DNA of 64,000 nt from Triparma columacea. Its lineage: Eukaryota; Sar; Bolidophyceae; Parmales; Triparmaceae. The position numbers and the translations under genes were made by a program. The stretch lies in contig BRYA01000059.1 of NCBI GenBank assembly GCA_030267965.1, positions 1-64,000 on the forward strand, read 5' to 3'. A model generated the notes under the pieces. The model saw only the letters and a list, made by a program, of their open reading frames with translations. It was not told the DNA's origin and did no database searches. The stretch's first letter is position 1; the number at the start of each line of letters is the position of its first letter. This document shows positions 405 to 35,385 of the stretch, piece after piece.

Positions 405-1980
405 CTACTCCCCATCCTCATCTTCATCTCCTATTGGCATGACACTGCTTACTTTAGCCTTCCCACCTCCTACCCCTATTATGTCTCCACCATCAGCGCC
501 TCTAACACTTGCTCTCCTAAAACTTGCTCTCAAAGAACCTGCTAGACCACTCTCAGCTTCAGCATCAACACTTGCTCTCCTCAAACTCTCTTTCCTTCTA
601 GCATCTCCTGCTACTGGAATGTATTCCACTGGCACTCGAGATCTCATTGCATTGTCAAACCACTCTGGCTTCTCATCCTCCCACCTTTCCCAGTTTGCCT
701 GTACCCAAGATTTTACTTCTTCTTCAATTGATTTCCAATAATGTTTTGAGTTTTCAAAAATTGCTTTTGCCCTCTTTTTATCATCGATTGAGTTACTAAA
801 GCGGGCAAGTACACCATCTTTTCCTCTTTCAAAACTGATGAAGGTACCCCAGTATTTGTTTTTTATGTTCAAGAAGAAGATAAAGAAACACATAATAGTG
901 AATGGTATTATAGCCCTTACAACAGTACGTGCAATTGCCAAATTCTTTTGAGCAACATCTCCTATATCAGCTAGGATAATAGCTACTGGGAGACTTCCAA
1001 TCGTCAAAACAAAGCCAAGCAGCCAATACATTCCACCAAGCTCATAAGGATGCCTAAACTGCACAATTGATGTAAAGTCTGTCACCACTTTCACCAACAC
1101 TCTGCAGACAATACTACTCAGTATTTCAAAATTGCCTCCAACAGGAATCCAGTACCAAAAGTCTCCTCTGATGATCTTCACCAACAAGTACAGGAGCATA
1201 TCAGCACCAACATAGAGAGAGACCCATCTACCACCAAGTAGCCCTAACACAACTATTGTCATGCACCTTATCACAAGCATACAAGCACTAAAGAACACCA
1301 TTGCAACAAATATGATAGATCTCTTGGTTGGATTTGCAGGCACATACCCATAGAAGTCAGGCACTTGCTCTCTCCTCACTGGGTCAGTGTCAAAGTCATA
1401 ACTTATAGTTGCAGATGCAAAGCCTGTTGTCAATGCTGAAACAATAAGTGAGACCCAAGCTGCATCTGCAACTTTCTTTTCACTTGTTGCCATAGCCATA
1501 AGTTGGATAATCACTCCTGGTATTGCCTCAGCGAACATCTCTATCCCTTTCATGTAAGTCATCTCTGTCAGAGCATCAATTGCTTGTCCAGTCTCTTGTT
1601 TTCCTCCCTTTGCCACCCTGTAAGCATCAACAGCAGGCTTAAACCCAATCAAAATAGGAAACCATTCCCTAAGCACTCTTAACATCCCCAACTTCTTGTT
1701 TTGTCCCCAAACAAAAAGCATTTGAATCCCAATAGAAACTGCCAAACTTGCCAGAGAAGACTTAAAGTACCCATCCTTCCCATCACTCCAAAACATGTAC
1801 GTCACGTACACATCAGTCAGCAAATCTGTCATACTAGTGATAGCACCAACAGTAACCCTCATCTTTAACCCCCACGGCACTTCCTCCAATAGCCTGTAGC
1901 TCATTGTCTCAAGCATAGGTCTGAACCAATCATACTCCTCATCAAGCTCCTGTAGAGCAGGGAAATTTAAGATGAAGGCA
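405..1980 (-). repeat. Second copy of intragenic multi-membrane module
   Basis: This stretch repeats 2250-3830 at an offset of about 1848 bases, with long runs of near-identical translation (for example PVRREQVPDFYGYVPANPTK in both). Both copies end with RVPVEYIP and then Arg-Arg-Ala-Ser motifs. It is a tandem in-frame duplication inside one exon, giving two membrane bundles in one chain. Confidence 0.85.
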
Positions 1981-4900
1981 TCCACAGCAGCAACTGGCTG
2001 AGTATTAATAGCCAAACTCCTTGCTAAAGACTCTCCAATCTCCCTCCCTTCCTTCTTCCCTACCTCTCCAGCCTTCCCCTTGACATTCCTCAGCCCATGC
2101 AATCTATTTTTCACAATAGCTGCAAGCATTGGTATGACAAACTCGTACTTCTGAGCCACACCGCACAACGTATGGTCGTTTATGACAAATTTTCTGACAG
2201 CATGTTCTTTTCCCATTCTCTTCTTTCTAGACTTCACAGCATGTAACAGTTGTCTACCTAGCTCCTCTCCTATATGTTTAGGATCTGAGATATCTTGTAA
2301 GTTGTCTCTAAAGACGGCTGGAGCTAATCTCACAACATCATCTCCATTTCCATATCCAATGCTTGCTCGTCTCATGCTTGCCATCAAAGCGCCTTTCACG
2401 CCATTTTCTCCTTCAAGATCAACACTTGCACGCCTGATACTCTCCCTTTGTCTTGATGTAGCTTTAGGAATGTATTCAACGGGCACTCTTGATTGTGTTG
2501 CTTCATCAAACCACTTTGGCTTCTCCTCCTCCCATCTATCCCAGTTTGCTTCTACCCAAGCTTTTACTTCCTCTTCTATCGACTGCCAATGGTGCTTTGA
2601 ATACTTAAATGTATACTTTGCTTTGACAGCATCTGAACCCTCTCTGAAATTCTTTACCGTTAAGTCCTTACCCCTTTGCAAGCTGTAGAAGGTGCCCCAA
2701 TATTTTTTCTCAATGTTAAAGAAAAATACAGCAAACAAAAAGATTGTACATGGTATAAATATTCCAACTACTTTCCATGCCAATTTAAGGCCCTCATCTA
2801 CAACATCTCCCCTTTCAACAATAATTATAGCTACTGGAAGACTTCCCATTGTCAATACAAATCCAAACATCCAATTAATCCCTCCAACCTCAGTCGGATG
2901 CCTAAAGTGCACAATTGAAGTAAAGTCTGTCACCACTTTTACCAAAACTCTACTAACACTGCTCATCACAATCTCTGCATTGCCACCAAGAGGCATCCAA
3001 TACCAAAAGTCTCCTCTGATGATCTTCACCAACAAGTATAAACCAAGGTCGGCACTAACATAAAGAGAGACCCACCTACCACCAAGTAGCCCTAGCACAA
3101 CTATTGTCATGCACCTGACCACAAGCATACATGCGCTAAAGAACATCATTGCAACAAATACAATAGATCGTTTGGTTGGATTTGCAGGCACATACCCATA
3201 GAAGTCAGGCACTTGCTCTCTCCTCACTGGGTCAGTGTCCCAGTCATAACTGATACATGCTGATGCATAGCCTGTTGTCAATGCTGAAACAATAAGTGAG
3301 ACCCACGCTACATCCTCAACGTCGTCTTTACTTGTTTCAATAGCCATAAGTTGGATTATCACTCCAGGTATGGCCTCAGCAAACATCTCTATCCCTTTCA
3401 TGTAAGTCATTTCTGTCAGAGCATCAATTGCTTGTCCAGCCTCTTGTTTTTCTCCCTTTGCAACCCTATAAGCATCAACAGCAGGTTTAAAGCCAATCAA
3501 AATAGGAAACCACTCCCTAACCACCCTCAACATCCCCAAATTTCTATTCTGTACCCAAACAGCAAACATTTGAAGCCCAATTGACACTGCCAAACTTGCC
3601 AAAGATGCCTTAAAGTACCCATACTTTTTATCACTCCAAAACATGTATGTCACATAAACATCAGTAAGCAAATCAGACATTGATGTAACAGCACCAACAG
3701 TAACTCTCCAAAGCATACCCCACGGAGCCATCTTCACGACGCCCTTCCCAATCTCCACAAACATGCCCTCCATCCATGGAAACTCCTCAAACAGCTCCCC
3801 AACAGCCCTGTTCTGCAATCTCCACATATCTACCCCTGCCTTAATCACCTTCCTGCTCTTCAAACAAGGCATCAAGTTATTTCCAATCACCCATGCTTCC
3901 TTCTCCTCAACACACTCAAGCTTGGTAGACACTGAGTTGTTGGAGCTAAACTCACAAAGCCTTGCCCTCTTCAGCAAAGTGACAAACCATGGGTACTTCT
4001 TCACAACCTCCCTCAAAGCGACATTCTCCTTGCAGACCTCCTCAACATGTCTCTCTCTGTCCTTCCTTGAGTGTGCTCCTCCAAGCTGTCCTCCATCCCA
4101 AACCAAATCAGCACCCAAGGCCTCGCCAACTTGCTTAGACATCTCCATTAAAGGAACAAGGTCAATAAAGTATCGTTGTGCCTCAGCAGCCTCGTCTAGG
4201 TGCCTCTCCAGAATTGATCTTGTTGCCTCTACACTCACAGAGCTACTAAGCTCTACCTTGGTGACAAATTCTACCTTGGTTGTCTTCTTTCCATTTTTTG
4301 TGAATATTATTGTGACTTCTTCAGATGCCCTTTGTGCAGTGCTTCTCGTAGTGTTGCTCAAAGCATCACTTCTCTTCATATTCTCCATTATTGGCTCCAT
4401 TATAATCACAATGATTTCTTCACCCATCTTGTGCAGCTTCATCACATTCCAGAACTCTCTATCTCTGTTCTTGACACCATGTTGTGATTCCAACTTCTGC
4501 CTTCTCCTCACAACCACTTCCCATGTCCCCTTCTTCTCTTCAACAACCCTCTCAACATCTCCTGTTGTTTCTTGATGGACTCTGCTCTCAAAGTCCCAGA
4601 AGTAGGCAGCAGCTTCCTCTAGACCAGCTCTGACTGTCACTGTTGTCTTTCCCCATCCCTTTCCCTTCTCTTCCACCTTAATCCAGGTATCTGAAAGAGG
4701 GAATGCACCTTCAACCTTTTGTTGGCCTTCAAGCTCTAGGAACTTGGCATCAAATGTCTCAGTGGTCATTTCTTTGATTTCACCTATTCCCCTCATTATC
4801 TGGATCCTTGTTGAAGCGTCAATGTCTCTGCTTCTGTCAAACTTTCTTCTCATATTTGAGACAGTTGAAAGAAACCTTGGCGCAATTTTGTTTATAATGG

Positions 4901-9656: not shown

Positions 9657-10503
9657 CTTCTACCACTCTGTTTTTAAAATCTTGCGTAAAGCTCAATCTG
9701 GGGTTGGGATGGGGAAAATAGTGTGAGGATATCGCAGGTGATGGGGGCAAGTGAATCCTCCAATGATTGGGTTCGTCATAAATCCTTGTAGATGTCGTCT
9801 CCCGTAGTTGTTAAAGCTCGAAATAATAACCGAAGACCAAATTTCTCCGTGAACACACTAAAAATAAGACCAGTCGAGCCAACAGCCCAACGACAGCATT
9901 CCTCTGTCACAAATCCCACACCGCTTCACGCAGTAATAACATAAATTTAGAAGATACCTTAACTCAACGGTTGGCCCTCTCGCCTCGTCCGTCCCCATTA
10001 CTTACTAACAAATATAGAATTGAATATTTTATCCAAGACAAAGGGGGTGGTTAGGGAGGGGAGAGGGTTGGGGGGAACCCCTACTTTCCTTATAATTCAA
10101 GTGTCTCTTTGTGCAAGCCTTCGGTAACGTACGGTTAGATTTACATTCTATTCACCACTCACCCAGAGGCAACCATCCCGTTTAGGATGGGGGGGTGGGG
10201 GCAGTCCGTGCATTTCGTTAGCCATTGGATAAAGGAGTTATATCCAAGAGTGTTTTTAACGATTAGGGTATTTTCAAGTGTAATTTACATACGTAGGTAA
10301 AGTATCCTATAAGTCCATCCCGTGGTAAGTGTTCGTTCCGTTCAAAGTTTCTTTCATTTTTACCCCTTCCCTCCCCTTATCTTTTTCTTATTTCTTTCTT
10401 TCCCCCTTTTCTTAACCCCCCTCCCTACCCTTATCTCTCTCCTCCTCCCTCCCTCTTCTCTCCGTCAAAACAGGTAGTTAGTTAGTTCCCCTTTCTTCTC
10501 TCT
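9657..10503. other. Intergenic region without recognised gene
   Basis: This is the 5' flank of the START gene and the 3' flank of TPI. It holds pyrimidine-rich runs (about 10350-10500) and short G-runs near 10060 and 10190. No ORF with coding character was seen on either strand. Confidence 0.5.
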
Positions 10504-11545
<1,042 letters not shown>

Positions 11546-26099: not shown

Positions 26100-27136
26100 A
26101 TGCTTCAATTTTTAATATTGTCGTCTTTGGTGATTGGCGGTCATGCCTTCAACGTCATGGTAAGTATAATTCTCTAGTTGTTATAGTTCTTGGACGAATG
26201 TAGTCTTCAGTAAAGGGTTTTCTTCCCCCCTGTCGACGATCTCCTTTCCCTTTCCCATTTCTCATACTAATCCCACCACTCAATGCGCAGGTCAACGGTA
26301 TGCCTGGGCCTATGGCTACCGCAGCTGCTGAGGCGTGCTTGAGAAAGGGCATGGACTTGGCTCCTTTTTGCTTAACAGGACCAGATATCGAGGAAACAGA
26401 AATTGAGATTACAGACCCTGATACCAAGAGGTCCCAGAAGGTGACACTTGTGCCGTCCACCAAGATCGGTAGCTTGGTCGACAAGTTGGGTGGCGTGGAG
26501 GGCACGGTGGCCATCGATTACACCCACCCCTCGGCTGTCAATGGCAATGGGGAATTTTACGTCAAGAATCGCATACCGTTTGTCATGGGAACGACGGGGG
26601 GGGATCGTGATCTCCTCATGAAAACCGTCACATCGCCGTCGCCCCATTACTGCGTGATAGCTCCCAACATGGGGAAGCAGATAGTCGCCATGCAAAATGC
26701 TCTTGAGTTCTTACAGACCCAATTCCCAGCCTCCTTTGAGGGCTACACGCTCAAGATAACCGAGAGCCACCAAAAGAAGAAGGCCGACACCAGCGGAACG
26801 GCCCTCGCCGTCATTGACTCCATCAAGGGAATGGTCGGCCCTAAGTGCACATTCCAGCAGGACGAGATCAACATGCTCCGCGACGACGCCAGCTCCAAGG
26901 ACTTTGGCGTCCCTACGGAGTACCTGGAGGCCGGGCATGCTTTCCACACCTACACCCTCACATCCCCCGATGGGTCCGTGGAGTTTGAGCTCAAACATAA
27001 CGTGTGTGGAAGGAGGGTTTACGCAGAGGGGACCGCGGACGCTGTCAAGTTCCTAGCTAAGCAAGTCGAGGAGAAAGGCGACGGGGGGGGCAAGGTTTTC
27101 AATATGATTGATGTTCTCGAGGCGGGAGCCCTGTAG
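26100..27136 (+). CDS. dapB: 4-hydroxy-tetrahydrodipicolinate reductase, plastid-targeted (plant-type DapB)
   Basis: Exons 26100-26159 and 26291-27136, 301 residues. It reduces the dihydrodipicolinate-level intermediate of lysine synthesis with NAD(P)H. VNGMPGPMA corresponds to the Rossmann glycine motif (VNGCxGKMG in relatives), VAIDYTHPS and FVMGTTGG to the cofactor region, and ESHQKKKADTSGTA to the catalytic/substrate loop. The 20-codon first exon (ATG at 26100) encodes a hydrophobic signal ending GGHA/FNVM, an ASAFAP-type plastid signal. The intron lies exactly at the border with the enzyme. The start is chosen by phase; the exon 2 frame alone would lack the Rossmann start. Lysine biosynthesis in the plastid is expected. 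Confidence 0.88.
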
Positions 27137-27349: not shown

Positions 27350-30300
27350 ATGTTCGCCACAGAGGATGAATTTATGGGAGAGTCAGCCCCAATGGATGTT
27401 ATTGACCCTAAATCTGATGCTTCTATCCTGATTTACTGCGATCTTGATGGCGTTCTGGCTGATTTTGATTTTGGGATGGCTCGACTCAAGGATGAGAAGG
27501 GATTCCAGGACCAGGATCAGCAGGTGGTATGGAAGGAGATAGCGAAGGACCCTCAATTTTTTCTAAACTTACCTATGACATCTGACGGGGAGGAGCTCTG
27601 GAACTACATCAAGGTGTATAATCCATCCATCCTAACAGGTGCTTCGATGCCCACCCTCAACAAGCTGAACTCGGTGGCGAATCAGAAGGCTGCGTGGTGC
27701 CGGAAGATGCTCGGTATGGTTGACGCTGTGCACATCGATGTGTCTCAGAGCGCCGGGGATCCGAGAACAACTTCCCTGTCCCCCAGCGGTGGCATCATTT
27801 TCACTTCGAAGTCGGAAAGGAAACACGAGTGCAGCGGACCGGGAAGGATACTGATCGACGACAGGCCTGGGACCGATGGTAAGTACAAGAGGAGTTGGGA
27901 GGAGGCTGGCGGTATTTTCATTCACCACAAGTCGGCAGCGGAGACCATCAGGGCCTTGCAGGCCCTTGGTATCACGCCGAAATCCGCCACCATGACTCCA
28001 AGCATAACCACAGTGGCTGGAACGTCATCCTCCGACACTTCCAACCCCCCAATTTCGAAGAAGCCGCTGGCCTACGACCTGAAAAAGGCGCTCCCAGCCA
28101 CTGCTCTGGATGAGGTAAGAATGGGCGGGGATCAAAGCAACTTTGTTGAAACCTTGTCGCGACTCCCTTTGCCCATTGCGAATTTTCAACTTCCCTTCTG
28201 TCATCGCTTCGCTCCTCCGCGCTCGCTCGTCGCAGATCCTCAGCGATAAGTACGAGCCTGCGCCTAGTAACTTCATTGCATCGAATGCCGTCAAATTCTC
28301 TTATCTCGTGAAGAGGTTGGAGACTATTGAGAACAATAGGTCGACTATTCCTTCAAAAGCTGCTATGCTTGATTGGCTTGTACCCCCTAAGCTCTTCAAG
28401 AAGTTTTTAGACCAGAAATCGTCGGGTTTCCCTTACCTACGCCTTCTGATGCCTCAGATTGATAACTCTCGGCCGGGACACTACGGGATGAAAGAAGCCC
28501 AGATCGCCGAGATTTGGGGGTTGAGCATGGGCTTGGATCCCAAGTCTAAGGCCCAGGAGGCGCTGTCATATTACAAAGATCCAACGAGGGCGGGGAGCAT
28601 GGCTAGTGGGGATCTAGCGAGCGCCATACAAAGAGAGCTGAAGAACAGGGGCAACGACGAGACATACTCCGAGGTTACGCTCGGTGAAGTCAATGAACTG
28701 ATGGACGAGGTAAGAATAGATAAGAAGTGGGGGAGCACCTCGAGGAGGAGCGAGGCGACAACATAAGCGCACTAGTTATAAATTTACCTTCTTTAGACTC
28801 GCTTCGCTCGTCGTGCAAATCTAACCCATTGATGCAACTCCCTCCGCGACTCGCTTCGCTCGTCGCAGCTCGCCTTCATCAACCGAGGCAGCACCGTTAT
28901 AAATCAATCGACACATGCGGAAGCCAGCTCTGGGGACGTTGCTAGACTATCTAATAACATTAGGTCTCAAATACCTGCCAATCCGTATCTAATGAAAGAT
29001 AAGACAAATACGAAGAAGAAGGGCAGAAAGCAGAAGCGAATCGAATGGTGCAAGGACCTCACCGAAAAGGTAAGATTATGCCCAAGGCTTGCTTCGTTCG
29101 ATGGTGCCCGCCGCAGCTGACTCTTGCTCTCCAACCCCCTCCCCCTCGCTTTGTAGTACAAGATGTCTCCTGACGAGCAAAAGTGGATCGTTAGGATCAT
29201 GATGATGAAACTGGATATCAGGCTGAACCACGAATCGATCCTTCAATACATGCACGAAGACATGGTGAACATGTACTCGGCGGTGCAAAGGTGAGAATGG
29301 AGATATAAAGATGCAGAGTGATGAGGATCGCAATGGGGAGGCTCGTAGTCGACGACTTCATGCGTGCGCTCGCCCCTCATCCCTTGCTAACTCCCATCTC
29401 AGTCTTGAGGTCTGTTGTCAACAACTTGCCGACAAGGAGTACATGAGGAGGCGGAAGCTGAGAAAGTTGGCCATGCTCCAAATTGAGACGTCGTTTATCA
29501 CGTCCACCAACGTAGCATCCGGTATCATTGTGCCCCAAACAGACGGCGTCAAGGTCGGAAATGCGTACTTGCCCATGCTCGCTGACAGGACTTCCTTCCA
29601 GAACCTGCTTTCGCATCTACAACAACGCATCAACAACAATCCAGTCCTGCTGAGGACCGCGGCCGGCCTCACAAAGTCCGAGTACAAGAAGCGCATCCTA
29701 GATTTGCCCCTGGATATGAAGCACCCCGCCTTCATAGGAGAAATCAAGATGGACGGAGAGAGGATGCTCTTCCACGTTAAGAGGGGAATCGTCACGTGTC
29801 ACTCGCGTAAAAACAACTGGTATTCGGAGATGTACTCGCCGTGCCTTGGCCCGGCTATTAGGAAGGCCCTCAGCAAATGGGACGTTGACTGTGTTTTCGA
29901 CGGTGAAGTCATTGCTTGGGACAATTTCAGAAACGAAGTGATTCCGTTTGGGATGAACAGGGCCGTTGCTAAGTACCGGAGAGAATATTTGCTCTCTCAG
30001 GGGCTCGTCGAAGAGAGAGACATTGGATTTGAGAAGAAGGGGAAGAACTATTTGGGCATTCTCAAGGGCCCCATGGGCAAGGGGGACACGGCGTATAAGT
30101 TGAAGGAGAGAAACCAAGAGAATATGGAAGCAGAGAAGGGATCTTCCGCGGCCCCTTCGGTGTCTGAGAAGGAGCAATATCCGGGGAGCTACATGTGGTT
30201 GACTTATGTGATTTTTGACATCGTTTACCTCGGAGGTCCTGGTGCCGAGGAATTTTTGGATTCCATCGGATGTGCGGACATTTTCAATATCCCTGGCCAC

Positions 30301-33300
30301 GATGGTGGTGACAGAGGCGGTCGTAGGGGTGGGAATGGGGGCAACTTCGGTGGAAGTCTCACCCACGTTGACCTGAACAAGAGGAAGAGGATTCTTTACA
30401 TGCTTCTCGAGCAGCAAAGGAAGAAGGTCGAGGTTTGCCACGGGGAGGTGATAACGCCCGACGGGAGGAGGGTTGGTGCTGAGGATTACTTCAAGAAAGG
30501 AGGTATGGAGGAGGACCGGAACCGAAATCACTTGGGGAGAAACAGCACGGAAGTGGAGGACGAGGCGTTCGAGAAGAAGAGAGGAAAGGCTATCGATGGC
30601 TTTTTCACTGACACCGTTGAGAATAATGGGGAAGAAGGGCTTGTCATCAAGGAGCTCACTAGTCCGTATCTGCTGGGGACACAAAAGTCGAGGAGCAAGG
30701 CGTTCTGGAGAAAACTCAAGAAGGACTACGAAGGCGAAAATGTTGCGAGTGACATCGACGTGCTTGTTTTGGGGGCTTACTTTGCGGATGGCAAGCATAG
30801 GGCGGGTATGATCACGAGCTATTTGGTCGGGCTAGCGAACGAGTCGGTTGATTTTGATGGAAAGCTTAGGTATCTGCCGTTCTGCAAGATCTCAGGGTGC
30901 ACTTACGATGATTACAGGAATGCGCAGAGATTCACTGGGTTCAGGAAGCGTGATGGTGTTTTCGATCTTGGTAAGTGGTGGATGAGCGGAGATGATAGAA
31001 GCGTGCTGCCTGATCACATCAGCACCAAGAGTTTCCAGAGAAATACGGATAAAGGGGATGACCATGGGTGGGTCCCGAACAAACTCGACTGGCCAGATCT
31101 CTGGATCAAGCCGGAGGACAGCTTCATGGTTGAGTGCAAGGCAGCAGAAATTGTTGGAAGCAAGGAATTCTCCTCCGGTATGTGTCTAAGATTCCCAAGG
31201 ATCGTTAGGATGAGGTGAGATGATTTGGGTTTGGGGATTTGGAGGCATTTGCACACACCTCATCGCTAACTTCCTTTGCTCGTCGCAGGTTCGACATGGA
31301 CAATTTCAACGGTGGGGAGAAGCCTATTGAAGACTGCATGACCGTCAAAGCTCTGAAGCAAATGAATTCGGAAAGGAAGAGTGCGGAGAGGATGAAGAGT
31401 CGCTCGGCCCGTGATAACGATGATGTCCCTTGCCGGTTCTTGACTCAGTCTGAGAAGGCGAAAATAGTAGACGCGAACAGGCGGAAGAAGAGGGAAGCGG
31501 GTGGGAGAACAAAAGACAAGAGTCTGGCCAAGAACAGCGCTGTCGCGAGGGGGACGCACATCAATGTCAAGAGCAATATTTTTGAGGGCCTGACGTTTTG
31601 CGTTCTTCCTGGCGAGTACGGACTGAAAGAGGGAGATGTGGAGTACGCCGAGGCGAAGGAGCTGAATTTTGCGAGGAGTATCAAAAGGGTCAAGAACAAG
31701 CAAGACGTGGAGCGATTCATCTACCAGCACGGAGGGAACTGTATCGGCGAGGTATACAACACACAGGACAGTGTCATTGACTACTACGTAGGCGGATCTT
31801 CTAAAGATTTGAAGGTTGAGACGATGCGAAAAAGTGTCGAAAAGATCAATCAAAGATTCGTTGAGCACGATTTCAAGGTGAAGGAAAAGCTGGTTGAGGG
31901 GAGACTGAGCAAGGTCAAGAGGGAAAAATACGAAAACATGGCAAACGTCGTTGTGGTCAAATGGACTTGGGTATTTAGGACAGGTGAGGGGTCTGAGAGG
32001 GAGAGAGAGCGAAGCGAGTGAGAGAAAGGCTGGAATAAATATGCGCCTTTGATGCTAACCCCCTGCGTCGTCGCAGCTTCCGAAATGTGGAATAGGGGGA
32101 ACAAGGGAGTGGAAGGCGCGGCGGAGGAGGTTCCACGCCCGAGGGGGTTCGATTTTTTGTTGCTGAACCAGAGGGAGAAGGAGAGGCTCGAGGAGGTCGA
32201 GGACAAGTTTGGGAACGTCAAGGGAGAAGAGTACACCGTGGTTGGGTTGAGGAGGATATTTGAGGGAATGAGTGAGTTTGGGGGGGGGGGGGCAGTGAAA
32301 CATGAAGCAATGGGGTCGTGGCAGGAGGATGATCGGTTGTCGGAGGGGGAGAAGTGGGTCATGGGAGGAGAAAGAGCGGAGCTTTGGAAGAGGGAAGGGG
32401 AGGAGGGAGAGGGGGCGAAAGTGTGGGTGTCTGGAGGGGAGGACGAGGGGCTTAGCAAAACTTTGCCGTGCGGTCTGCTCGTGAGGCACATGGGAGGAGT
32501 GATTCAGAGGAGAATGGGAAATGAAACGAACTACGTTCTCGTGGAAGAACTGGGAAGATACAAGGGCCTGACATGGGGGAGCGTAAAGAACGATATCGAG
32601 CTAGGGAGAATGTACAGGGAGATGATTTGGTGGAAGGAGTGTGAGGCAGCCGGTGTCGGGTTCAACCCCCTTATAATTACAGTGGAGTGGGTGCACGAAA
32701 AGTGGGGGCCTTGGAATAGGTTGGAAGGTGGTGGGGGGGGGGGGGCGGAGGGAGCGATTGATGGGGGGGAAGGAGGGGCCGATGGGACAGGGAAGGAAAA
32801 TAAGGAGGAAAAGGAAGAGAGGATGAAAACTGGTGTTATAATGGTCGGGTTTCCGGGGAGCGGAAAATCTACGTTCGCAAAGCACCTGGAAGAGAAGGCG
32901 GGAGAGGGCGAGAACAAGTTCATCATCGTATGCCAGGACAAGCTCCAGACATATGCGAGGTGCAAGGAGGTTGTCAAGAAGGCAGGGAAGAAGAGGCTAA
33001 ACATCATTATTGACAGAATGAACTTGAAGAGGGACGACAGGATCGACTGGGTGAAGTTATTGAGAGAGGGGGAGGTTGTAGATAAGATCGTCGTTGTCCT
33101 CATGGCAACCGATCTAAATACTTGCCGGGAGAGGGCCGACGCAAGGCAGGACCACCCAACCATAAAGCCAGGAACGGCGGGTGCAATAATCGCCATCCAC
33201 CAGCCAAACTTTGATATGATTGATGCCGAGGAGGGTGAGGAAGAAGACGCAAAGGCCGACAAGGTAATTATTGTTGGAGATGCGGAGGGGCAGGTGGGCT

Positions 33301-33344
33301 TTGAAGAGGGGTTGGAGAGGGTCATTGAATTGCTGGGGGAGTAA
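27350..33344 (+). CDS. LIG4: DNA ligase IV fused to HAD phosphatase and polynucleotide-kinase-like domain
   Basis: Exons 27350-28114, 28236-28709, 28869-29069, 29157-29290, 29403-31214, 31289-31983, 32077-33344; all phases agree, 1782 residues. Domains in order: HAD phosphatase (DLDGVLADF at 31, LTG 95, Lys113, LIDDR 168-172); ligase IV DNA-binding domain (256-560, LRLLMPQIDNSRPGHYGMKE); nucleotidyltransferase core with EIKMDGER (Lys640 is the AMP acceptor), FDGEVIAWD, EEGLVIKE, WRKLKKDY; OB fold (from about 976); BRCT (about 1224-1360); second BRCT (about 1490-1568, ending EWVHEKW); P-loop kinase (GFPGSGKST, Lys1624; CQDKL; IDRMNLKRDDR). The kinase resembles those attached to plant aprataxin-like proteins. 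The ligase seals double-strand breaks in end joining; the flanking domains could trim 3' phosphates and phosphorylate 5' ends. All ligase motifs are intact. Confidence 0.93.
28796..28865. repeat. Intronic 18-bp direct repeat
   Basis: GACTCGCTTCGCTCGTCG occurs at 28796-28813 and exactly again at 28848-28865, 52 bases apart, within intron 2 of the ligase gene. The second copy is the functional acceptor end (followed by CAG); the first looks like a retired acceptor end followed by TGC. The same core tails other introns in the window. Confidence 0.85.
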
Positions 33345-34033
33345 AAGGGGAGGGGGGGCAGAGAGTGTCTGTTGTACATGAACGAACGTGCTTCTACTTT
33401 TGCAATTTCATTCGCGAAAAGCGTGTTTCAGTCACATTCTAATAGCATTGAACGAAGGTATGTCAAGTCAGGGCATTGCGATCTGTTACCAACGATCAAG
33501 ATCGATTTTGTCAGAATTGTCAAGAATTTGCGTTTTTTGGCTCATTTTGACTTTGGAATATAATTAGTATGCAAAGATTAAATGATATATACAATCATGC
33601 AAATAGATCAAAATAAAACAAAAATACATATTTGAAAACTGCCAAGATCATTTTTTTAGAATGATTTTGATGTACTATAAAAATTATTCAAGATTATTTT
33701 TATGATCGAATTATTATTGCACAAAGTTATAATAAGTAAATAATACATCTTCATAAGTTATGCTTTTCTAAAAATGTGAAAATAATTTGTCAATACTTGA
33801 AATAATTTATGATGAATAACTGAACATAGAAAATTACTCAAATATTTTATCAAAAATCAAAAACTGATTACTGAAAATCTAAAAATTCGTAGGGTTTACC
33901 ATTTACTCAAGAAACTAAGCGTTTTAAATACCCCTCGATAATATTTTCGTGATTAACCCGGTGTATTAAGTCAAATTTGAACGAATCGCAAACTGTATCA
34001 CCGCCAAAGCTTTATTTTCCCAAGAGTCACTCG
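33345..34033. other. AT-rich intergenic region
   Basis: About 690 bases between two plus-strand genes. From about 33560 to 33960 it is strikingly AT-rich compared with the rest of the window, with many AAAAT/TTATT runs and no long open frame. It holds the ligase 3' region and the promoter of the TRM11-like gene. No repeat family or RNA gene was recognised. Confidence 0.6.
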
Positions 34034-35385
34034 ATGTCGTCGCTTTTCCTCGTCCTCATTGTCCACACACTTAGTAGTTCTCGAATCCACGCGTTCTCTC
34101 ATACATATCTTGTTCAGTGGCGAGGCGAAAAGGACTTCGCGTACAGCCCACGTGAATTCCGGGAAGCTGAGTTTCGGAATGCATTGCAAGCAGAGGATCT
34201 CAGTAGCAGTTCTCTCAAGTTTGAGTCGGTCATGGGGGATTCCGCTCAGCCGAATCAAACGAACCAGAACGATATCATTCAGTTGATGTCTACGGAAGTT
34301 TCTAAGATGAATGTAATAAATGGTGCATCGCGATGCGCCACAGTAAGAAATCTCTATGAGGTGCTTGGAGAGGGCGAATCTTATGAGTCTTGTGCTTCTG
34401 CGGCTTCAGAGAAGGATAGCTTTACAATGGACGAGCGAGCAGGGGCGAGTTGGGCGGTGAGGTGCCGCGATTATAGAAACGGTAGGGTTGGAAAGGCAGT
34501 TAATGTGGGGAAGACTTTTGAGCGGGAGGCAATAATTGGCATATCAAAAGTAACGGATCAATTGAGAGGTCCAGTGTCCCTGTCCACCCCTACAGTTTTA
34601 CTCTATGTTGCCATCTTTCCTGGTTCGAGGTACCTCCTTCTTCGTGAGCTTGGGCATGGGTTTCCTGATCTCCGCAAATTCGACCCGAATACCCGGCGGT
34701 GTATAACCTCCACGCCTCTAGAGCCAATAGCTGCCTTCGTTATGGCAAATTGTGCACGCGTGAGGCCTGGGAGTAGTGTGATCGACCTTTACGCTGGGTC
34801 ATGCGCCACCTTATTGGCAGCAGGGGGTCTTTGCAAAGACGTGAAGACGGTGGGTGTTGAGCGAGACAATGATTGGTTGGTCCCCTTTGAAAAAATTAGA
34901 GAAGGTGAGACAATCGCGTTTCTTGTAAACAGATATTAATCCAACCCTGCCCCTCCTTCGCCCCCTCAGATTTCACCATCCGAGATCTCCCCCCCCCTCA
35001 TCTGATCCGTGGCGATTCTCGAGACCCCAAAACGCTCCAAGAAGCATTAGACGCCAACAATGGGAATCCCTTTGACGTTATTATGGCGGATCCTCCCTAC
35101 GGAAAGCGGGAGAAAAAAGATACCAACGCTTCAGAACCACTGTTCGACATAGTTAATGCTTGCGTTACACTGCCCCTACTAAAGAAAAATGGACGCTTGG
35201 TCGTCTTCGTTCCTGTCGAAACGGAGCATCTGGACACACGGAGCTCCATGGAGGTGCTCGAGAGCCTTTGTGTGACAAAACCCCTCCTCATCTCAGCCAA
35301 GCTCCAACTTCGCGAGCTGTTATCTCAGCGCTTGAATGCCCACCTCTCTCGTCTTCTCCTTGTCTTCGAGCACGTATCTACGTAA
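34034..35385 (+). CDS. TRM11-like tRNA guanine-N2 methyltransferase, plastid signal
   Basis: Exons 34034-34904 and 34970-35385, 428 residues. The N-terminus (MSSLFLVLIVHTLSSSRIHA then FSHTYLVQW) is a signal peptide with a Phe at the likely cleavage point, as in stramenopile plastid proteins. The C-terminal half is a Rossmann methyltransferase: TSTPLEPIAAFVMANCARV, then VIDLYAGSC (SAM-binding), VGVERD, and the catalytic ADPPYG near 330, typical of N2-guanine or N6-adenine methylation. The order and motifs recall TRM11, which makes m2G10 in tRNA. The N-terminal THUMP-like region is hard to see. Plastid location is inferred; a cytosolic form is possible from an internal ATG. Confidence 0.8.

Follow-up and report, generated by a model that had tools for sequence, protein, structure and literature searches.

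Eukaryotic end joining is viewed as the work of numerous separate factors that XRCC4 and Ku bring together. Whether one polypeptide could combine several of these activities is the question raised by a gene at positions 27350-33344 of a 64,000-nucleotide (nt) stretch of forward-strand DNA from the bolidophyte Triparma columacea (GenBank assembly GCA_030267965.1, contig BRYA01000059.1, positions 1 to 64,000; hereafter the window), where a first-pass annotation had read a DNA ligase IV fused to a HAD phosphatase and a polynucleotide-kinase-like domain. The reading frame and the domain identities described below support this single-chain reading, and we consider it rather probable that the gene encodes a heal-and-seal end-joining ligase, i.e., a ligase IV with an N-terminal HAD phosphatase and a C-terminal polynucleotide-kinase-type kinase. 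The broader proposal, which we judge to be evenly balanced, is that a eukaryotic lineage made ligase IV a one-chain enzyme (3′-phosphatase, ligase and 5′-kinase) by adopting modules that serve RNA repair elsewhere, and that it now lives without a bifunctional PNKP.

The gene is intact. Its seven exons join into 5349 nt that code for 1782 amino acids (aa) without an internal stop, from an ATG at 27350, two codons past a stop, to a TAA at 33342-33344, and the six introns (121, 159, 87, 112, 74, and 93 nt) are all bounded by GT-AG; the G+C content of the window is 51.3%. The motifs that had been reported along one splice-consistent chain lie where they were placed, namely DLDGVLADF (aa 31), K113, LIDDR (168), KMDGER (640), GFPGSGKST (1618), QDKL (1647), and IDRMN (1672), and the later ligase motifs after KMDGER are present as well.

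The Ligase IV Core and its BRCT Domains

Judging from its domain matches, the middle of the protein is a ligase IV. The DNA-binding domain of the ligase begins in exon 2 (28236-28709; PF04675, E-value 3.1e-12) and continues through exons 3 (28869-29069) and 4 (29157-29290), reaching 8.6e-20 for the same family in the spliced protein. Exon 5 (29403-31214; PF01068, 5.8e-19, and 2.7e-17 in the spliced protein) codes for the adenylation and OB domains, with the lysine codon of KMDGER at 29746, and exon 6 (31289-31983) for the end of the OB domain followed by BRCT1 from about 31554. The OB-fold family PF04679 is below its cut-off in the spliced protein (20.8 vs. 27.5 bits). Among PDB entries, DNA ligase 4 is the top match of the exon 5 protein (2.4e-16), followed by ligase 1 (8.1e-8) and ligase 3 (3e-7), and the core with its KxDGxR motif is nearest to LIG4. 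The Pfam RNA_ligase family scores 14.6 bits on this DNA ligase core in the spliced protein, of 27 needed, and the same protein has no Pfam match to a 2H phosphoesterase.

Two BRCT domains had been claimed, of which the first stands and the second is weaker than proposed. BRCT1 lies under the Pfam cut-off and aligns with human LIG4 BRCT1 at a z of 8.67, with 0 of 1000 shuffles scoring as high. BRCT2 (about 32313-32741) has no Pfam match, and its alignment with human LIG4 BRCT2 is equaled by 566 of 1000 shuffles. The second BRCT is supported by a home-made BRCT profile alone, a small one built from seven BRCTs of the same genome (of eleven matches) and the two human LIG4 BRCTs, on which the region, picked by eye ahead of the profile test, scores 7.2 bits (0 of 1000 shuffles as high). 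In leave-one-out controls, human BRCT2 and the same-genome L197 reach 12.3 and 18.8 bits, respectively, each with 0 of 1000 shuffles as high. No real fragment attains the score of BRCT1 or BRCT2 (0/1419 bacterial or viral, 0/198 from the same genome), and the 25 top-scoring 143-residue segments of the whole protein start only at 1161-1291 or 1381-1491, which are the two BRCT sites.

The C-Terminal Kinase

Exon 7 (32077-33344) codes for a linker, BRCT2, a Gly/Glu-rich linker, and a P-loop kinase (AAA_33, 32835-33155) up to the stop codon. It is a single 421-codon frame, as the first-pass annotation had noted in stating that BRCT2 and the kinase share one uninterrupted exon; the remaining two frames stay open for at most 61 and 69 codons. 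The exon also contains two runs of exactly 13 G (32280-32292 and 32733-32745), which are read as glycine linkers flanking the BRCT2 region; their consideration as frame breakers was rejected, the frame being unchanged before, between, and after both runs.

The motif and profile evidence identifies the C-terminus as a P-loop kinase of polynucleotide-kinase type, which shares its open exon with BRCT2. The exon matches AAA_33 at 6.7e-14 in Pfam. The best NCBIfam families, PNK-3′Pase and bacterial Pnkp, are both far under cut-off, and TIGR01663 (2.2e-8) is below cut-off. GFPGSGKST, QDKL, DRMN, and RQDHPTI align with PNKP and with kinases of repair proteins, and the Walker A motif and catalytic Asp of PNK-type kinases are present. 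The profile searches that had been suggested for the two end domains returned a HAD and a PNK-type kinase, with catalytic residues kept in both.

Within this class, PNKP is a distant relative. The best solved structures are 9drz (1.8e-15) and 9d8a, a Rhizopus azygosporus kinase (1.7e-12), both fungal-type, with PNKP at 0.008; no literature on Rhizopus kinases was found. A protein search with exon 7, taking the best 8000 candidates by common words, gave two matches, P0008 (PNK3P and AAA_33) and P0007, a phosphatase-kinase whose Pfam numbers we take to denote a PTP-type phosphatase. By phmmer, P0007 scores 59.8 bits, the repair proteins P0003 and P0002 52.6 and 50.0, L011 46.5, and the PNKP P0008 42.9. 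QD, DRxN, and HPTI are common to the window kinase, P0007, P0003, P0002, and L011; P0008 instead has RD and DNTN, without HPTI. The kinase had been placed closer to plant aprataxin-linked kinases than to PNKP; in a comparison set without plant sequences, PNKP scores lower against it than do a Rhizopus kinase and the kinases of other repair proteins. The locus L011 (contig C199, about 10202-10570) is a second kinase of this type in the Triparma genome, in a 332-codon frame where a RanBP-like zinc-finger motif, CRFCTYENGPNDLNCLIC, was seen by eye.

The N-Terminal HAD Domain

Exon 1 (27350-28114, aa 1-255) codes for a domain at aa 25-208 (27422-27973), followed by a linker. Its assignment as a HAD stands on profile, PHROGs, and fold evidence, exon 1 itself having no Pfam or NCBIfam match of its own. 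Both the PDB profile rows and the fold rows are 5′(3′)-deoxyribonucleotidases, the catalytic residues are retained (DLDGVLADF, K113, LIDDR), and the domain has the fold and residues of the NT5C type. PF06941 gives no match in the window HAD, 31 of the 70 aligned HAD members matching it at E 0.01. PNK3P is matched neither in the exon proteins nor in the spliced protein (Pfam); PNKP phosphatases are not among the PDB profile or fold matches listed, an absence that carries no weight. The earlier view that this HAD is nearer to 5′-nucleotidase-type enzymes than to PNKP is therefore borne out by the profile and fold rows and by the lack of a PNK3P match.

5′(3′)-deoxyribonucleotidases act on free nucleotides. 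Because its fold family acts on nucleotides, the action of the HAD on DNA ends would be the least certain mechanistic step. The alternative that survives best, which we regard as unlikely yet worth serious consideration, is that the fusion is real and the HAD, inactive on polynucleotide ends, works as a nucleotidase or, without catalysis, as a docking module, so that the kinase alone heals. Besides the grouping of profile and fold with free-nucleotide enzymes, relatives that carry a functional name are mostly nucleotidases, and PNK3P-type phosphatase genes elsewhere in the genome could mean that the HAD is not needed for 3′ phosphates. Two such genes are matched in the host genome (G000; 37.85 Mb, 789 contigs, of which the window is contig C59), L002 on C716, whose frame ends directly after the phosphatase domain, and L003 on C365, which is partial. 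None of 17 AAA_33 kinase matches (22 of 59 kinase candidates scored) lies on C716 or C365, where a kinase could go undetected because of introns, gaps, or candidates left unscored. As far as the scored candidates go, the contrast that had been drawn with a separate, bifunctional PNKP fails for this genome, which has two PNK3P matches and no P-loop kinase match on either contig.

Against the nucleotidase or docking alternative stand the kept catalytic residues and the company of this HAD in long proteins. Protein searches with the HAD covered lengths outside the range of 447 to 979 aa; among proteins of at least 980 aa, they gave six matches, and by Pfam annotation all six have both a kinase (AAA_33) and an RNA ligase domain. 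Five of them were rescanned with Pfam; in the truncated P0001, the RNA ligase falls just under cut-off. The 2H 'Swiss Army Knife' domain is matched in P0002 (below cut-off) and P0003, and the 'Swiss army knife' label for the remaining four is our own. In P0002, the HAD (about 751-910) precedes a kinase that starts at about 938, and P0002 as a query finds four places in the Triparma genome: the kinase end of this gene, two pieces of its HAD end, and the C199 kinase. The window HAD as a query has one match in the genome. Given the P0002 query and the six long HAD proteins, ligase IV is thus flanked by modules that adjoin elsewhere in one repair chain. In a jumbo-phage overview, 'Swiss-army-knife' HADs, mostly stand-alone, are assigned to linear phosphate removal in RNA repair (PMC7824862), and the window HAD may belong to that exact family.

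P0001 and P0004-P0006, which are 1720 to 1868 aa long, combine an RNA ligase, a HAD, and a kinase. R3H is matched in P0001, P0005, and P0006 and below cut-off in P0004, a 3′-5′ exonuclease domain in P0001, P0004, and P0006, and a prim-pol-like domain in P0001 and, below cut-off, in P0005. Stand-alone HADs are represented in the protein database by the MMETSP transcripts P0109 and P0115. Viral contig scans with exons 1, 5, and 7 yielded no relatives. On the viral contig of locus L102, a 985-aa frame (1559-4516) bears a HAD of the window's family at its end and adjoins a P-loop kinase-like frame.

Predicted Splicing of the Gene

The next alternative, that two or three adjacent genes were misread as one (HAD in exon 1, ligase IV in exons 2-6, BRCT-kinase in exon 7), is improbable in our estimation. 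A Met and an open frame are present in both exon 1 and exon 7, and the links between the putative genes are only intron 1 (28115-28235; 121 nt; acceptor GCTCGTCGCAG), which connects the HAD exon with the ligase, and intron 6 (31984-32076; 93 nt; acceptor GTCGTCGCAG), where the unspliced frame meets a stop at 32019-32021. Against this alternative stand the lengths of these two gaps. In addition, BRCT2 and the kinase occupy one frame, and in exon 2, 43 residues precede the first in-frame Met, while the Pfam ligase match already starts at residue 21 (profile position 2), so that a separate ligase would begin past the start of its conserved domain.

The predicted HAD-ligase splice is backed by the divergence of a relative past the donor and by a shared acceptor motif. 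P0010, an ENA-sourced relative, shares 72% identity with the window protein from residue 1 onward (13/24 residues before the HAD, 144/182 in the HAD, 16/33 in the linker, and 10/14 in the last residues ahead of the donor), and its alignment stops at most 4 residues beyond the exon 1 donor, those residues being partly encoded by the donor sequence itself. P0009, a JGI-sourced copy, is identical over 255/255 exon 1 residues and differs at 2 of the 44 read-through residues beyond the donor. GCTCGTCGCAG occurs three times in the window, against 0.00 copies expected from 100 shuffles; each copy is an acceptor in this gene, in introns 1 (28225-28235), 2 (28858-28868), and 5 (31278-31288). The longer form CTCGCTTCGCTCGTCGCAG has 23 copies in the genome and 0 when reversed, as expected for a repeated intron family. 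The intron ends are introner-like, and a second GACTCGCTTCGCTCGTCG copy lies inside intron 2.

Weighing the Single-Chain Reading

Several observations weigh against a single-chain heal-and-seal ligase. No transcript was seen for the fused gene, whose expression as one protein is predicted, and no full-length fusion from a second species was found among the proteins of at least 980 aa matched by the HAD; the evidence from P0010 reaches the HAD and the donor, not a kinase linkage in that species. BRCT1 reaches 5.4 bits on the home-made profile, a score that 18 of 1000 shuffles attain. AlphaFold modeled exon 7 with a predicted local distance difference test score of 35.6, too poorly for a structure search. 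The comparison of the XRCC4-binding linker with its human counterpart is equaled by 107 of 1000 shuffles, and the linker has no Pfam match.

The remaining points concern the HAD. The 40 phage records listed comprise, by annotation, 12 nucleotidases, 24 hypothetical proteins, 3 DNA repair endonucleases, and 1 unannotated record. At the best 80 loci per scan with HAD relatives in IMG/VR and GTDB contigs (160 of 234 + 355, i.e., 589, confirmed), a weak kinase neighbors the HAD at 1/160 (L102, E 3.8e-4) and an RNA ligase at 0/160, and these bacterial and viral HADs look stand-alone. In a tree of 106 rows with weak deep branches, from which 20 rows lacking the exact motif had been removed and P0009 was left out, the window HAD is not sister to the HADs of the repair proteins, and common descent of the HAD-kinase pair is for this reason not demonstrated. 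The suggestion that the fusion was assembled independently calls for a different wording: the two end families are already neighbors in RNA-ligase repair proteins, although the tree does not join the window HAD to theirs.

A further proposal, which we judge very improbable, is that the fusion protein acts on RNA or RNA-containing ends and not on DNA double-strand breaks, its end modules being of RNA-repair type. The co-occurrence of the HAD and kinase families with RNA ligases and the detection of both modules by the RNA-ligase protein P0002 speak for it. Against it, the ligase and its tandem BRCTs are of the type of ligase IV, an enzyme known for DNA end joining, and the genome has Ku-family matches.

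The Ku matches are two, on different contigs; a frame beside one of them contains a SAP-like stretch by eye. A search of the genome for the XRCC4 family found no match anywhere, with controls likewise unmatched. Other DNA ligase matches are on C24 and C449. Next to the fused gene, the upstream frame 26204-27136 is dihydrodipicolinate reductase-like by eye, and the downstream frame 33953-35385 is methyltransferase-like by eye, with a DPPYG motif.

Proposed Mechanism

For the single-chain end-joining ligase, family knowledge of the kinase, HAD, and ligase suggests the following roles. At a Ku-bound double-strand break, 5′-OH ends would receive a phosphate from ATP through the kinase, the HAD would take off a 3′-phosphate or related 3′ blocking phosphate, and sealing would fall to the ligase, such that healing would arrive with the ligase and replace a separate PNKP recruited by XRCC4. 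The scheme supposes that the kinase acts on DNA rather than RNA and is coupled to breaks, and that the HAD may clean DNA 3′ ends rather than free nucleotides. If true, covalent fusion can replace factor gathering by XRCC4 and Ku, modules known from RNA repair are tied to DNA end joining, and some lineages are predicted to be able to live without bifunctional PNKP; a single protein would also be at hand for testing the order of healing and sealing.

Comparison with Known Systems

The protein shares with LIG4/Dnl4 the KxDGxR motif, both BRCTs, and the domains for DNA binding and adenylation together with the OB domain. It differs by its additional N-terminal HAD and C-terminal kinase and by its length of 1782 aa, compared to 911 in human (7lsy_X), and an XRCC4-binding linker is not demonstrated here, given the 107 of 1000 shuffles. 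Among the titles and abstracts listed in the literature covered, which leaves most subscription papers outside, ligase IV does not appear with a kinase or HAD domain attached.

In mammals, PNKP heals ends and binds XRCC4 via its FHA domain in end joining (PMC7337934). The same pair of chemistries, 3′-phosphatase and 5′-kinase, is implied for the Triparma protein, and the kinases are distant relatives. However, the HAD is here outside the PNK3P family, the two modules stand at opposite ends and are covalently part of the ligase, and the spliced protein has no FHA match in Pfam. The 'Swiss army knife' proteins P0002 and P0003 (2H phosphoesterase, RNA ligase, HAD, and kinase) have the same HAD and kinase families, adjacent there, but bear an RNA ligase in the place of DNA ligase IV; no 2H match occurs here, and the HADs are not joined in the tree.

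Bacterial LigD likewise combines an end-joining ligase and an end-healing domain in a single chain; it carries a PE phosphoesterase and a polymerase and is not known to have a kinase or BRCTs. Ligase-type and end-healing functions are genetically coupled in a Deinococcus radiodurans repair operon, which encodes an HD-phosphatase/kinase PNKP alongside an ATP-dependent ligase-like protein; these are, however, separate proteins, the phosphatase is of HD type, and the ligase is non-functional alone (PMC1997131). Set beside these systems, the Triparma protein is classed as a variant of ligase IV, and neither as a PNKP nor as a Swiss-army-knife protein.
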